This document shows positions 1-3,186 of a stretch of DNA of 64,000 nt, in pieces. The translations under genes were made by a program, and so were the position numbers. Numbering within the stretch: the stretch's first letter is position 1; the number at the start of each line of letters is the position of its first letter. This stretch comes from Faecalibacterium sp. I4-1-79 (GTDB lineage Bacteria; Bacillota; Clostridia; Oscillospirales; Ruminococcaceae), in contig NZ_CP094467.1 of the NCBI RefSeq assembly GCF_023347235.1, positions 186,001 to 250,000 of the forward strand, in the 5' to 3' direction. A model generated the notes under the pieces. The model was not told the origin of the DNA and did not search any database. It saw only the letters and a program-made list of their open reading frames with translations.

Positions 1-719
1 CGGGCGTGCTCATCGGCAAGGAGGTCTTTGGCGGCTACGGCAGCTACCCCTTCAACCCCGCTGCCGTGGGCTACGCCGTGGCGGCGGTATCGTGGCCGGA
101 GCAGGTGGTGCGCTACCCGCAGCCCTATACGCCGCTGCCCCTGTGGAACGCCTCTGCCGTGCCGGTGAGCAGCACCATCGAGGATACCCTGCGCAGCGGC
201 GGTATCCTGAACCTGAACGCCCTCGCCATCGCGCTGGGCGAGTTTGCCGCCCCCATGGGCACCGGCGCAGCGCTGGTCATTCTGGCCTGCGGCCTTGTGC
301 TGTGGACCCAGAAGGACGTGCACATCGGCGCATCAGCGAGCTTTCTCATCACCTGCGGGCTCATCGCTTTCTTCTTCCCGCGGCAGGTAGGTCTGGCAGA
401 CAGCACCCTCTTCAGCAGCCTGATGCCCCGCTTGCAGGGCATCCGGGACGAGCTGCACACCGGTGCAATGCTGTTCTGCGCGGTGTTCCTGCTCAACGAG
501 CCATACACCTGTGCCCATCACCGGCTTGGGCGCATCCTGTACGGCGCACTGGTGGGCATCGCCACCATGGGCTTCCGCTATTTCGGCGTGTACGAGACCG
601 GCGTCTGCTTTGCACTGCTGGCAGTCAACAGTGTGTCCGCGCTCATTGACCGCACCGAGGAGCGGCTGTACCGTCTGCTGCACCGTCTGCCGTCCGAACG
701 AAAGGAGGCTGCGGAATGA
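1..719 (+). CDS. rnfD: RnfD-like membrane subunit, 5' end outside window
   Basis: This is the C-terminal ~238 residues of an RnfD/NqrB-type integral membrane subunit of an ion-translocating ferredoxin:NAD oxidoreductase. The reading frame is open from the first base, and the motif FNPAAVG near the start is typical of mid-RnfD, so the true start lies upstream. Several hydrophobic helices follow, ending in a charged tail. Family members carry a covalently bound FMN on a Thr in an S/D-GAT motif; the corresponding stretch here reads SAVPVSSTIEDTL, with no clear GAT motif. The stop overlaps the next start by 4 nt, which implies translational coupling. Family assignment is good; a working flavin site is doubtful. 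Confidence 0.8.
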   Translation, partial: GVLIGKEVFGGYGSYPFNPAAVGYAVAAVSWPEQVVRYPQPYTPLPLWNASAVPVSSTIEDTLRSGGILNLNALAIALGEFAAPMGTGAALVILACGLVLWTQKDVHIGASASFLITCGLIAFFFPRQVGLADSTLFSSLMPRLQGIRDELHTGAMLFCAVFLLNEPYTCAHHRLGRILYGALVGIATMGFRYFGVYETGVCFALLAVNSVSALIDRTEERLYRLLHRLPSERKEAAE

Positions 720-1441
720 AAAAGCGTACTGCGGAGCTGATTTTAAAAGATCCCGAAAAGTTTGCCCATCACGACCGCGTGTTCCTGAATAACCCGGTGG
801 TCATGCAGGGCATGGGTCTGGCACCGCTGGTGGTCGTGGCCACCACCGGCCAGAACAGTCTGACGCTGGCGGCGGCGGTGGCGCTGCTGCTGGTGCCCTC
901 CCGCGTGCTGGCCTGCCTGCTCAGCCGCCTTGTGCCCCTGCGGGATGAGGAGCCTTCGCCCGCGCAGCTGCAAAAAAAGCTGCTGCCGCGTGCCATTCTG
1001 TATGCAGCCAGCGCCGCTGTGGTGTATCTGGCGGCGTATCCCATTTTGAACTTCGTGTTCGGCACTGGTCTTTTGAACCTTGGCATCTACCTGCCCATGC
1101 TGGTGGTGGAGCCGCTTCTGACCTACCGCTTCGGCCGCGTGCAGGAGACGGTGCATAAGGCTGTTTCCAAGGGCGTGCGCATCACCGTGGGCTACGCGCT
1201 GCTGCTGCTCGTGATCGGCATGGTGCGCGAGTGGCTCAGCCTTGGCACCGTGTTTGGTGCCCCGGTAGGGCGCTGGGCGCTGCTGCCGCTGGCTAAGATG
1301 CCGGCGGGCGGCTTTATCGTGCTGGGCATCCTGTGCGCCATCTGGCGCGCTGCCGCTGCAAAGCGCAAGGAATATCTGCAAAAGGAAGCGCGGGATACCC
1401 TGACCGTGCACTACCAGAAGGAGGCGGACCGCGAACCGTGA
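716..1441 (+). CDS. rnfE: RnfE-like (Rnf-Nqr family) membrane protein
   Basis: A 241-residue, six-helix Rnf/NqrD family protein. It aligns with RnfE through NNPVVMQGMGLAP, the LGIYLPMLVV segment and the REWLSLGTVFG motif. In canonical RnfE a Cys follows LGL and another sits in the VTNC motif; together with RnfA these bind the intramembrane [2Fe-2S] cluster. Here they are Ala36 and Pro133. An N-terminal extension of about 20 charged residues is present. The start ATG overlaps the rnfD stop and the gene overlaps rnfA by 4 nt. rnfG, normally between D and E, is absent. It is an Rnf-family protein by sequence, but its electron-transfer role is uncertain. Confidence 0.78.
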   Translation: MKKRTAELILKDPEKFAHHDRVFLNNPVVMQGMGLAPLVVVATTGQNSLTLAAAVALLLVPSRVLACLLSRLVPLRDEEPSPAQLQKKLLPRAILYAASAAVVYLAAYPILNFVFGTGLLNLGIYLPMLVVEPLLTYRFGRVQETVHKAVSKGVRITVGYALLLLVIGMVREWLSLGTVFGAPVGRWALLPLAKMPAGGFIVLGILCAIWRAAAAKRKEYLQKEARDTLTVHYQKEADREP

Positions 1442-2052
1442 AAGAAGTTGTAAGCAGTTCGGCAGTGTTTTTCAGCTATGCACTGCTGGCTATTTTTGCA
1501 CAGAACGCTGTCTTTACCCGTGCACTGGGCGTGTCCCGCATGGTGCAGCTGGTGGGGGACGACCGCACCAGCAGCGCCTTGTTCGGCATGATGCTGTGTA
1601 TCACGCAGGTGCTGGTGGCACCGGTGGCTTTCTTTGCCGGGCGGTGGTTCATTGCCCCGCTGGATAACCGCGCCCAGCTGCGCCCGCTGGTGTATATCGC
1701 CAGCATTGCCGTGGTGTGTCTGGCAGAGCATCTGGTGCTGTGGCTGCTGCGCAGCCTGCCCCGCCGCGCCCAGCTGCTGCGCATCGTGCCGCTGGCCGCG
1801 CTGAACAGCGGCGTGCTGGGCACGGTGCTGGTGGAGCGCACCCAGACCTTTACCCTTGGCGAAAGCCTTGGCTTTGGCCTTGGCAGCGGCCTTGGCTATG
1901 TGCTGGCGGTGCTGCTGGTCACCGAGGCGCGTCACCGCCTGCGCAGCAAAGCGATCCCCAAAGCATTCCGCGGCCTGCCCATCACGCTGGTGTATATCGG
2001 CGTGCTGGCGCTGGCAATCTATGGCTTTACCGGACATTCCGTCATCCTGTAA
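1438..2052 (+). CDS. rnfA: RnfA-like (Rnf-Nqr family) membrane protein
   Basis: A 204-residue membrane protein starting at a GTG inside the end of rnfE (GTGA overlap). A longer open frame exists upstream, but the overlap and similarity begin here. It matches RnfA by order and by the AQNAVFTRALG, NSGVLG and KAFRGLPITL segments, and has six predicted helices. Canonical RnfA has Cys in LGxCPF and TTNC; this protein has Ser33 and Ser124 at those places. It is therefore missing both of its expected [2Fe-2S] ligands, as is the adjacent RnfE-like protein. rnfB does not follow; an unrelated gene starts 24 bp downstream. Confidence 0.78.
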   Translation: MKEVVSSSAVFFSYALLAIFAQNAVFTRALGVSRMVQLVGDDRTSSALFGMMLCITQVLVAPVAFFAGRWFIAPLDNRAQLRPLVYIASIAVVCLAEHLVLWLLRSLPRRAQLLRIVPLAALNSGVLGTVLVERTQTFTLGESLGFGLGSGLGYVLAVLLVTEARHRLRSKAIPKAFRGLPITLVYIGVLALAIYGFTGHSVIL

Positions 2053-2076: not shown

Positions 2077-3186
2077 ATGGCTAAGTATAAACGTCAGAAG
2101 GTCAAGCATTATCACCGCAGCTTTTACAGCCGGGAAATGCGCGTCAAGCGCGGCATCGGCATTGCGGTGCTGGTAGTGGCAGTGCTGGCAGCAGCATGGT
2201 TTGCCGCACCCCATGTGCTGGATTGGGCCACCCACACATGGTATACCGTGGTCAAGGACCGGGACCTCGAGGCCGAAAGCGCTTCCCGCGCCGAGGCAGC
2301 AGCCTCCTCTGCGGCGGCAAGCAGCGCTGCCGCCTCGCAGGCAGCGTCGTCTGAACCGGAGCCGGAGGAGGAAAAGCCGCTGGACGGCAAGGCCATTACC
2401 GGCGGCAGCTGGGCAGAGCTGGATGTGACCGCCCTGACCGATGATGCCGCTATCCGCGCCGCCGCCCGGCAGCTGAAGCAGCAGGGCGCAGACTACGCCC
2501 TTGTCACCCTGAAGGACGCCGCTGGCACGGTGTACTACGCTTCCGGCGTGGCAGCTGCTGCGCAAAGCATCACGGAAAACCCGGTGGATGCGGCCAATAT
2601 CGCTGCCATCCTGCGGGAAGAGGGCATCATCCCGGCGGCGCAGCTTGCCGCCTTTACCGACCCGGTGTCGGTGTACACCGACCGCAGCATGGGCGTGCAC
2701 TACGACGGCAACAGCCTCTGGCTGGACAACGTCAGCGCAGCCAAGGGCGGCAAGGCGTGGATGAACCCCTTTGCCGCAAGTGCGGTGCAGTATATCGGCG
2801 ACCTCATTGAGGAGGTGCAGGGCATGGGCTACGAGCAGGTGGTGCTTACCGGGGTGCAGTTCCCCAACATCATCACTCGCAAGCAGGACTTCGGCGCTTC
2901 CGGCGGCAAGAGCCGGGAGGGACGCGCCGCCCAGCTGACCGCTGATATCGCCGCATGGCAGACCCGCTTTGCAGGCAGCGTGACCCTGTGGGTCAGCTAC
3001 CCTGACGCGCTGTGCACCGCTGCCACCGATGCCCTTGGCACCACCGGCACGTCCCTTGGCATGGAAAATCTGCTGGTCACCAGCAGCACCGCACTGGATG
3101 CGGACAGCCGCGCTGCGCTGGAGCAGGCCGCTGCCGATGCCGGTGTGCAGCACCTTGTGGTGCACGACGCCGCAGCATTCCGCTGA
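2077..3186 (+). CDS. membrane-anchored DUF4015-like putative glycoside hydrolase
   Basis: A 369-residue protein with a basic N-terminus, one membrane segment around residues 27-45, and a low-complexity Ala/Ser/Glu linker (residues ~65-105). The extracellular region resembles the DUF4015/putative glycosyl hydrolase TIM-barrel family: LKQQGADYALVTLKDAAG, a repeated WLDNVS motif and VQYIGDLIEEVQGMGYEQVV match the usual pattern of residues after each strand. It is likely exposed on the outer face and acts on or binds cell-surface polysaccharide, but no substrate can be inferred. RBS GGAGG precedes the ATG. It follows rnfA closely and may be in the same transcript. Confidence 0.65.
   Translation: MAKYKRQKVKHYHRSFYSREMRVKRGIGIAVLVVAVLAAAWFAAPHVLDWATHTWYTVVKDRDLEAESASRAEAAASSAAASSAAASQAASSEPEPEEEKPLDGKAITGGSWAELDVTALTDDAAIRAAARQLKQQGADYALVTLKDAAGTVYYASGVAAAAQSITENPVDAANIAAILREEGIIPAAQLAAFTDPVSVYTDRSMGVHYDGNSLWLDNVSAAKGGKAWMNPFAASAVQYIGDLIEEVQGMGYEQVVLTGVQFPNIITRKQDFGASGGKSREGRAAQLTADIAAWQTRFAGSVTLWVSYPDALCTAATDALGTTGTSLGMENLLVTSSTALDADSRAALEQAAADAGVQHLVVHDAAAFR

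Follow-up and report, generated by a model that had tools for sequence, protein, structure and literature searches.

Faecalibacterium and many related gut bacteria carry, beside a normal Rnf, a second Rnf core that probably moves something across the membrane without electrons. This core is encoded by three genes, here called D', E' and A', at the start of the window (the whole stretch of 64,000 nucleotides analysed, bases 186001-250000 of a host genome that forms one contig of 3.23 Mb and is 99.87% complete). Judged from their sequences, they almost certainly make up a conserved, paralogous version of the Rnf membrane core that lacks the residues for the [2Fe-2S] cluster and for FMN. We give a probability of roughly 0.4 to our main reading, in which D'E'A' serves either as an ion conduit or as a solute transporter coupled to ions, with no redox cofactors involved; that an Rnf-derived complex shed its electron chain stepwise to become this cofactor-free transporter or channel is put forward equally tentatively. 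The genes concerned, with the basis of each assignment, are:

Window 3..719, plus strand: D', RnfD/NqrB-like membrane subunit, 3' part (Pfam match, alignment, AlphaFold)
Window 716..1441, plus strand: E', RnfE/NqrD-like membrane subunit, 241 aa (Pfam match, alignment)
Window 1438..2052, plus strand: A', RnfA/NqrE-like membrane subunit, 204 aa, GTG start (Pfam match, alignment, AlphaFold)
Window 2077..3186, plus strand: DUF4015 protein, PF13200 (Pfam)

The full D' gene (L003:9700-10719) encodes 339 aa, its first 301 bases preceding the window, and its product is 98% identical to D' of F. prausnitzii ATCC 27768 and APC923/51-1; the window is F. prausnitzii-like. Because four-base overlaps occur at both junctions, D'/E' (ATGA) and E'/A' (with the GTG start of A' on the E' stop), the three genes were read as one operon. 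Upstream of D' are rpe, a histidine kinase and a response regulator, while the DUF4015 gene and a DUF1015 gene lie downstream of A'. The initial annotation had described this locus as lacking rnfG between D and E and rnfB after A. Indeed, D' and E' are adjacent and the DUF4015 gene comes next after A'; a look upstream of the window for rnfC, rnfG and rnfB found rpe adjoining D' and no rnfC there. Genes for RnfB, RnfC and RnfG are thus all missing from beside D'E'A' in L003, an RnfC-like gene (C') being found in some relatives only. In Pfam, D' matches PF03116 (NQR2_RnfD_RnfE, E 2.3e-38) and E' and A' match PF02508 (Rnf-Nqr, E 7e-23 and 1.9e-22), all well over the cut-off; the NCBIfam cut-offs for rnfD, rnfE and rnfA are missed by all three (95.9 of 207, 46.4 of 213 and 78 of 229 bits, D' being scored without its first 101 residues). 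The two-component pair of response regulator and histidine kinase 5' of rpe (L003:6306-8533) is found near rpe in many relatives too.

The window locus is not the sole Rnf of this genome. A second, canonical rnf locus, which the initial annotation had proposed to look for, was found at about 2.746-2.752 Mb on the minus strand, with the order C-D-G-E-A-B and all four cluster cysteines. The host genome has four PF02508 genes in total, two at each locus, and one other RnfA match. In full-length matches D', E' and A' share only 24-27% identity with their canonical counterparts in this genome. Of the canonical loci compared, 30 of 31 have all four cysteines and one has two. Four small lipoprotein-like genes, seen by eye, stand in a row 5' of the canonical rnfC (L004:14475-17227). 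A separate, second change of the cluster site was seen in L133 (3573 bases, genome G230, from another family of the order), a canonical-order rnf D-G-E-A-B in which the second cluster Cys of RnfE is Gly and the first Cys of RnfA is shifted (GCGS).

Relatives were collected with an E' search that gave matches in 135 of 148 genomes of the family, most with two and with both kinds mixed. A first set, consisting of 40 E' loci with flanks, 20 matches from the order (13 paralog, 7 canonical) and the window, yielded 54 paralog loci, which were compared with 31 canonical loci. A second set of 40 loci, made up of the lowest scorers and of other genera, contained 39 paralogs and one canonical locus (L216). 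With L216 and L249 (A' only) left out and L192 kept, 92 paralog loci remained, spanning three families of the order. A contig scan seeded with the D' alignment gave 51 loci, 22 of which were used for dN/dS. Three of the 51, distant gammaproteobacterial loci (L123-L125, 23-27% identity), were left out of later analyses.

The spread of the paralog was followed with an A' profile. In 20 control genomes it scored the paralog at 143.5 bits or above and other matches at 118.5 bits or below, and at E 1e-41 it recovered 20 of 20 control paralog genomes, a threshold at which weaker true members would be missed. Its separation is imperfect, the canonical Rnf of G632 (L216, with four Cys) scoring 136.1 bits and the weakest paralogs 136.7-143. 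By this profile A' is present in 102 of 148 family genomes (E up to 1e-38) and in 70 of the 94 genera of the family sample, the remaining 24 genera having no genome with A'. Across the order there were matches in 51 of 297 genomes, one of them canonical (G632); by score, the remaining 50 comprise 33 from family f1, 16 from f5 and 1 from f91. Across the phylum A' was found in 2 of 398 genomes at E 1e-41, both within the same order. No description of this paralog was found in the literature searched, most subscription journals and bioRxiv lying outside its scope.

What sets these loci apart is the cluster site. In the window the cluster cysteines are replaced in E' by Ala36 and Pro133 and in A' by Ser33 and Ser124, so that none of the four is kept. 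These replacements, singled out by the initial annotation, stand up in the alignment, where they fall on Acetobacterium woodii RnfA C25/C113 and RnfE C25/C108, reported as the cluster ligands of that organism (PMC11889175). The RnfA/E metal site has been described as strictly conserved (PMC9588780). Chance is excluded as the cause of the loss in the window by the 91 further loci: none of the four cysteines is kept in 46 of the 92 paralogs, one in 45, two in 1 and all four in 0 (28 with none and 26 with one in the 54 paralogs of the first set). By position, A C25 and E C108 are kept in no paralog, E C25 in 4 and A C113 in 43. Non-cofactor residues are widely kept, namely E Asn15 in 89, E Arg148 in 88, A Asn112 in 86 and E Arg67 in 77 of the 92.

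Two substitutes for the cluster were considered. A new metal centre at its place, formed by the remaining A' Cys with Ser, Thr, Asn or Asp, would fit the retention of A C113 and A Asn112 just given, but C113 is gone from 49 of 92 paralogs, the window included, and half of the loci, 46, have none of the four cysteines. Nor were conserved cysteines found elsewhere, an outcome that the initial annotation had named as evidence against its claim: apart from the ligand positions, Cys is present in at most 45% of 54 rows in any column of A' or E'. We regard a new metal centre as very improbable. The other candidate, a replacement salt bridge between a basic residue at A position 26 and Asp or Glu at E position 107, was rejected. 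In a simple table of 54 loci the pairing looked strong (20/10/5/19, Fisher p 0.001), but on the tree of 92 loci it came to 0.0 independent pairs going the same way, and it was therefore dropped as evidence.

The flavin sites of D' have changed as well. A flavinylation motif had been reported missing from D, and indeed none of the 92 paralog D' rows, the window included, shows the xAT stretch that surrounds the FMN threonine. Thr alone stands at the FMN column in 6 of 92, among them the window, whose Thr159 aligns with the FMN Thr but adjoins a stretch poorly modelled by AlphaFold. Similarly, Glu188 of RnfD is kept in 0 of 54 paralogs. Of the riboflavin ligands (A. woodii numbering), Asn123 is kept in the window D', but Asn120 is replaced by Tyr and Asp249 by Glu. 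Many relatives are better equipped. At 36 of 92 loci a C' gene is found on the strand of D' and no more than 4 kb from it, and the riboflavin triad of N120, N123 and an acid at 249 is complete in 31 of these 36, compared with 7 of the 56 loci without C'; the acid at D249 is kept in 44 of those 56. On the tree this association amounts to 1 independent pair (starred branches) or 3 (all branches), and the co-occurrence of C' with the triad is best taken as a sequence pattern that would stem from few independent events. Of the 13 C' in the first locus set, all 13 have both CxxCxxCxxxC motifs whole and none has the GGAGFPT nucleotide motif.

Such relatives raise the alternative that the complex is still redox-active, electrons passing from ferredoxin through two [4Fe-4S] clusters of C' and riboflavin in D' to a membrane acceptor, with an unlinked protein substituting for C' in Faecalibacterium. 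The intact cluster motifs of C', the complete triad at most C'-bearing loci and the acid that persists where C' is lacking all agree with this, and NqrB has been described as handing riboflavin electrons to quinone (PMC10643135). It is harder to square with the scarcity of the whole triad at loci without C', the nucleotide motif gone from every C' examined, the lost FMN site of D', the missing RnfG, and the Tyr and Glu at two ligand places in the window itself. On balance we consider continued redox activity rather unlikely. Going beyond the initial annotation, we note that many relatives possess an RnfC-like subunit as well as a riboflavin site, and that the loss looks stepwise: C' and the riboflavin ligands are kept mostly in earlier-branching relatives, and the Faecalibacterium branch lost C' together with most of the riboflavin site. 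The number of C' losses depends on the tree: that of 54 paralogs fits one loss, at a weakly supported fork, and that of 92 paralogs needs four label changes.

The paralog is conserved as a unit. Its D' proteins form one clade (SH-aLRT 100, stem 0.88, from a quick tree search), and the operon rpe-(C')-D'-E'-A'-(DUF4015) recurs across three families. In the first set rpe lies upstream on the same strand at 52 of 54 loci, the exceptions being L180 and L041 (the latter near a contig end), and DUF4015 lies downstream on the same strand at 37 of 54. In the second set, where presence within the fetched stretch and not adjacency was scored, rpe was found at 39 of 39 loci and DUF4015 at 33 of 39. In the host genome rpe is single-copy.

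This bears on the suggestion of the initial annotation that the locus might be a degenerate paralog operon, which would make it a nonfunctional duplicate, dead or decaying. Most cofactor sites are gone, and over all usable pairs the median dN/dS values of D', E' and A' (0.32, 0.37 and 0.35, at a median dS of 0.67-0.79) lie above that of rpe (0.22), so constraint appears looser than for rpe. An in-frame TGA also occurs after 134 residues in E' of L192 (L192:7398-7985, minus strand), the only f91 locus, where the frame covers 69% of reference positions; this E' is broken, recoded or an assembly error. Decay is nevertheless contradicted by the single clade, by the presence of A' in most genera sampled, by the operon kept in three families and by frames of nearly full length. 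Among near relatives, which comprise Faecalibacterium and a single Fournierella locus, 22 of 22 have frames that cover at least 94% of each of the three genes; at least 85% of the A. woodii positions are covered by A' in 92 of 92 paralogs and by D' and by E' in 91 of 92 each. Between the window and its nearest strains dN/dS is 0.07-0.11 for D, 0.10-0.12 for E and 0.06 for A, indicating purifying selection. We therefore reject degeneration, which we find barely credible.

Alternatively, D', E' or A' might serve as regulatory or alternative subunits that swap into the canonical Rnf, giving an inactive or modified form, or that aid its assembly. Most paralog genomes do have a canonical partner, judging from RnfB-profile matches in 51 of 54, of which 47 are over the family cut-off and some weak ones may be other ferredoxins. 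However, in G598, a two-contig genome that is 99% complete, the RnfB profile matches nothing and the paralog locus accounts for the only two PF02508 genes; G076 and G079 resemble it, but are only 83% and 88% complete. Furthermore, C'-bearing relatives supply an RnfC-like subunit of their own, and the low identity to the same-genome canonical subunits also argues against exchange. Given the paralog-only G598, swapping is unlikely as a sole role, and we hold a role of this kind to be improbable overall. The single clade, conserved operon, retained non-cofactor residues, low near-strain dN/dS and paralog-only genome favour instead the other branch of the initial annotation's proposal, a different machine built from Rnf-fold subunits.

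Structure prediction is consistent with such a machine. AlphaFold single-chain models reached pLDDT 83 for A' and 80 for D'. Against the PDB, the best matches of predicted A' were NqrE (TM 0.75) and RnfA (TM 0.62-0.71); predicted D' matched RnfD best (TM 0.77), followed by weak matches to a urea transporter (E 5e-3) and AmtB (E 0.2). The models thus indicate that the RnfA and RnfD folds are kept in A' and D'. The urea-transporter match counts little, being weak and of a kind said to be common to NqrB/RnfD generally. The DUF4015 protein has one hydrophobic helix near its N-terminus, a layout like that of RnfG; the helix may stand in place of RnfG with the remaining part forming an outside domain, and this conserved neighbour is possibly the outer partner of D'E'A'. 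Its Pfam label is putative glycosyl hydrolase. It had three matches in the PDB at E 1 or below, of which the strongest, itself weak, was 4s1a (E 9e-5), annotated 'uncharacterized'; with only weak matches, no function was assigned to it.

Redox-free transport remains our preferred explanation. In A. woodii, mutants of the cluster and of the riboflavin ligands are reported to have no oxidoreductase activity and no growth on H2+CO2 (PMC11889175); since ligands needed there are lost here, the core should be unable to carry out Rnf chemistry, and electrons would no longer cross the membrane via D'E'A'. What remains would be the part held to conduct or transport, that is, the Na+ path of RnfA/E and the ammonium/urea-transporter fold of RnfD. 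Indeed, RnfA/E has been proposed as an alternating-access Na+ path of Rnf in an account that reports no ion path found in RnfD (PMC11889175), NqrB is said to resemble urea and ammonium transporters (PMC10643135), and a transporter-like architecture has been described for the membrane subunits (PMC12174285, PMC10643135). Because the core is kept despite cofactor loss and its kept parts have this architecture, transport would be the simplest task left to it. Of the residues proposed for the Na+ route in A', T111 is kept in 0, E88 in 0 and Q85 in 1 of 54 paralogs; with part of the A' half of the route not kept, a different cargo or coupling, or no transport, is possible. In the order that we envisage, B, G and the [2Fe-2S], FMN and NAD sites would have been shed first, and RnfC with the riboflavin site later. 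In C'-bearing relatives with a riboflavin site, the cytosolic redox state may gate D'E'A' through the two [4Fe-4S] motifs that C' brings, an input that the Faecalibacterium branch would have dropped. The neighbouring rpe (pentose phosphate pathway) and membrane-anchored DUF4015 protein hint weakly at sugar metabolism, although the link to rpe may be co-transcription only.

The paralog differs from each system with which we compared it. It resembles the Rnf complex (RnfABCDGE, ferredoxin:NAD+ oxidoreductase) in membrane-subunit homology, predicted fold and the order D-E-A, and in many relatives of the window in having an RnfC-like gene before D, but its operon lacks B and G, the cluster ligands and the FMN site, C' of relatives lacks the NAD motif, and D', E' and A' score below the NCBIfam rnf cut-offs. 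Na+-NQR (NqrABCDEF) offers a precedent: according to one proposal it is a duplicated Rnf from which RnfB was lost, while its NqrA, a relative of RnfC, lost its cofactors (PMC4014512). However, NQR is described as still having riboflavin, both of its covalent FMN groups and the [2Fe-2S] of NqrD/E (PMC12174285), whereas the paralog lost the cluster and FMN sites and C', where present, kept its [4Fe-4S] motifs; nor is NqrF or NqrC among the genes flanking D'E'A' (rpe, DUF4015). Finally, NQR/RNF-like flavinylation clusters are likewise partial systems with an NqrB/RnfD homolog, but are described with a fused NqrF-type NAD domain and flavinylation genes, mainly in Actinobacteria and CPR (PMC8238504), and neither feature is seen at the paralog. 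Two published models are at odds over where ions cross, in RnfA/E or in RnfD/NqrB (PMC11889175, PMC10643135), and a naturally occurring core that has no electron cofactors and is conserved in a major genus of the human gut could be of use in testing models of the Rnf ion path. If our reading is true, nature would here have separated the transport part of Rnf from the redox part. An rnfA/D/E-like gene in these bacteria need not belong to an electron pump.

Individual loci vary in gene length and content. In L183-L187 (genus g405) the open frames of E' run to about 344-416 aa, versus 241 aa in the window. At L180:4480-8008, where D', E' and A' occur without rpe, E' is 400 aa, and D' and E' are separated, at the usual place of rnfG, by a gene for a CAP-domain protein whose start is lipoprotein-like. 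At L051:4879-5460 the interval between rpe and C' contains a MecA-family gene (Pfam) on the other strand, and a similar arrangement was seen by eye in L040 and L047.
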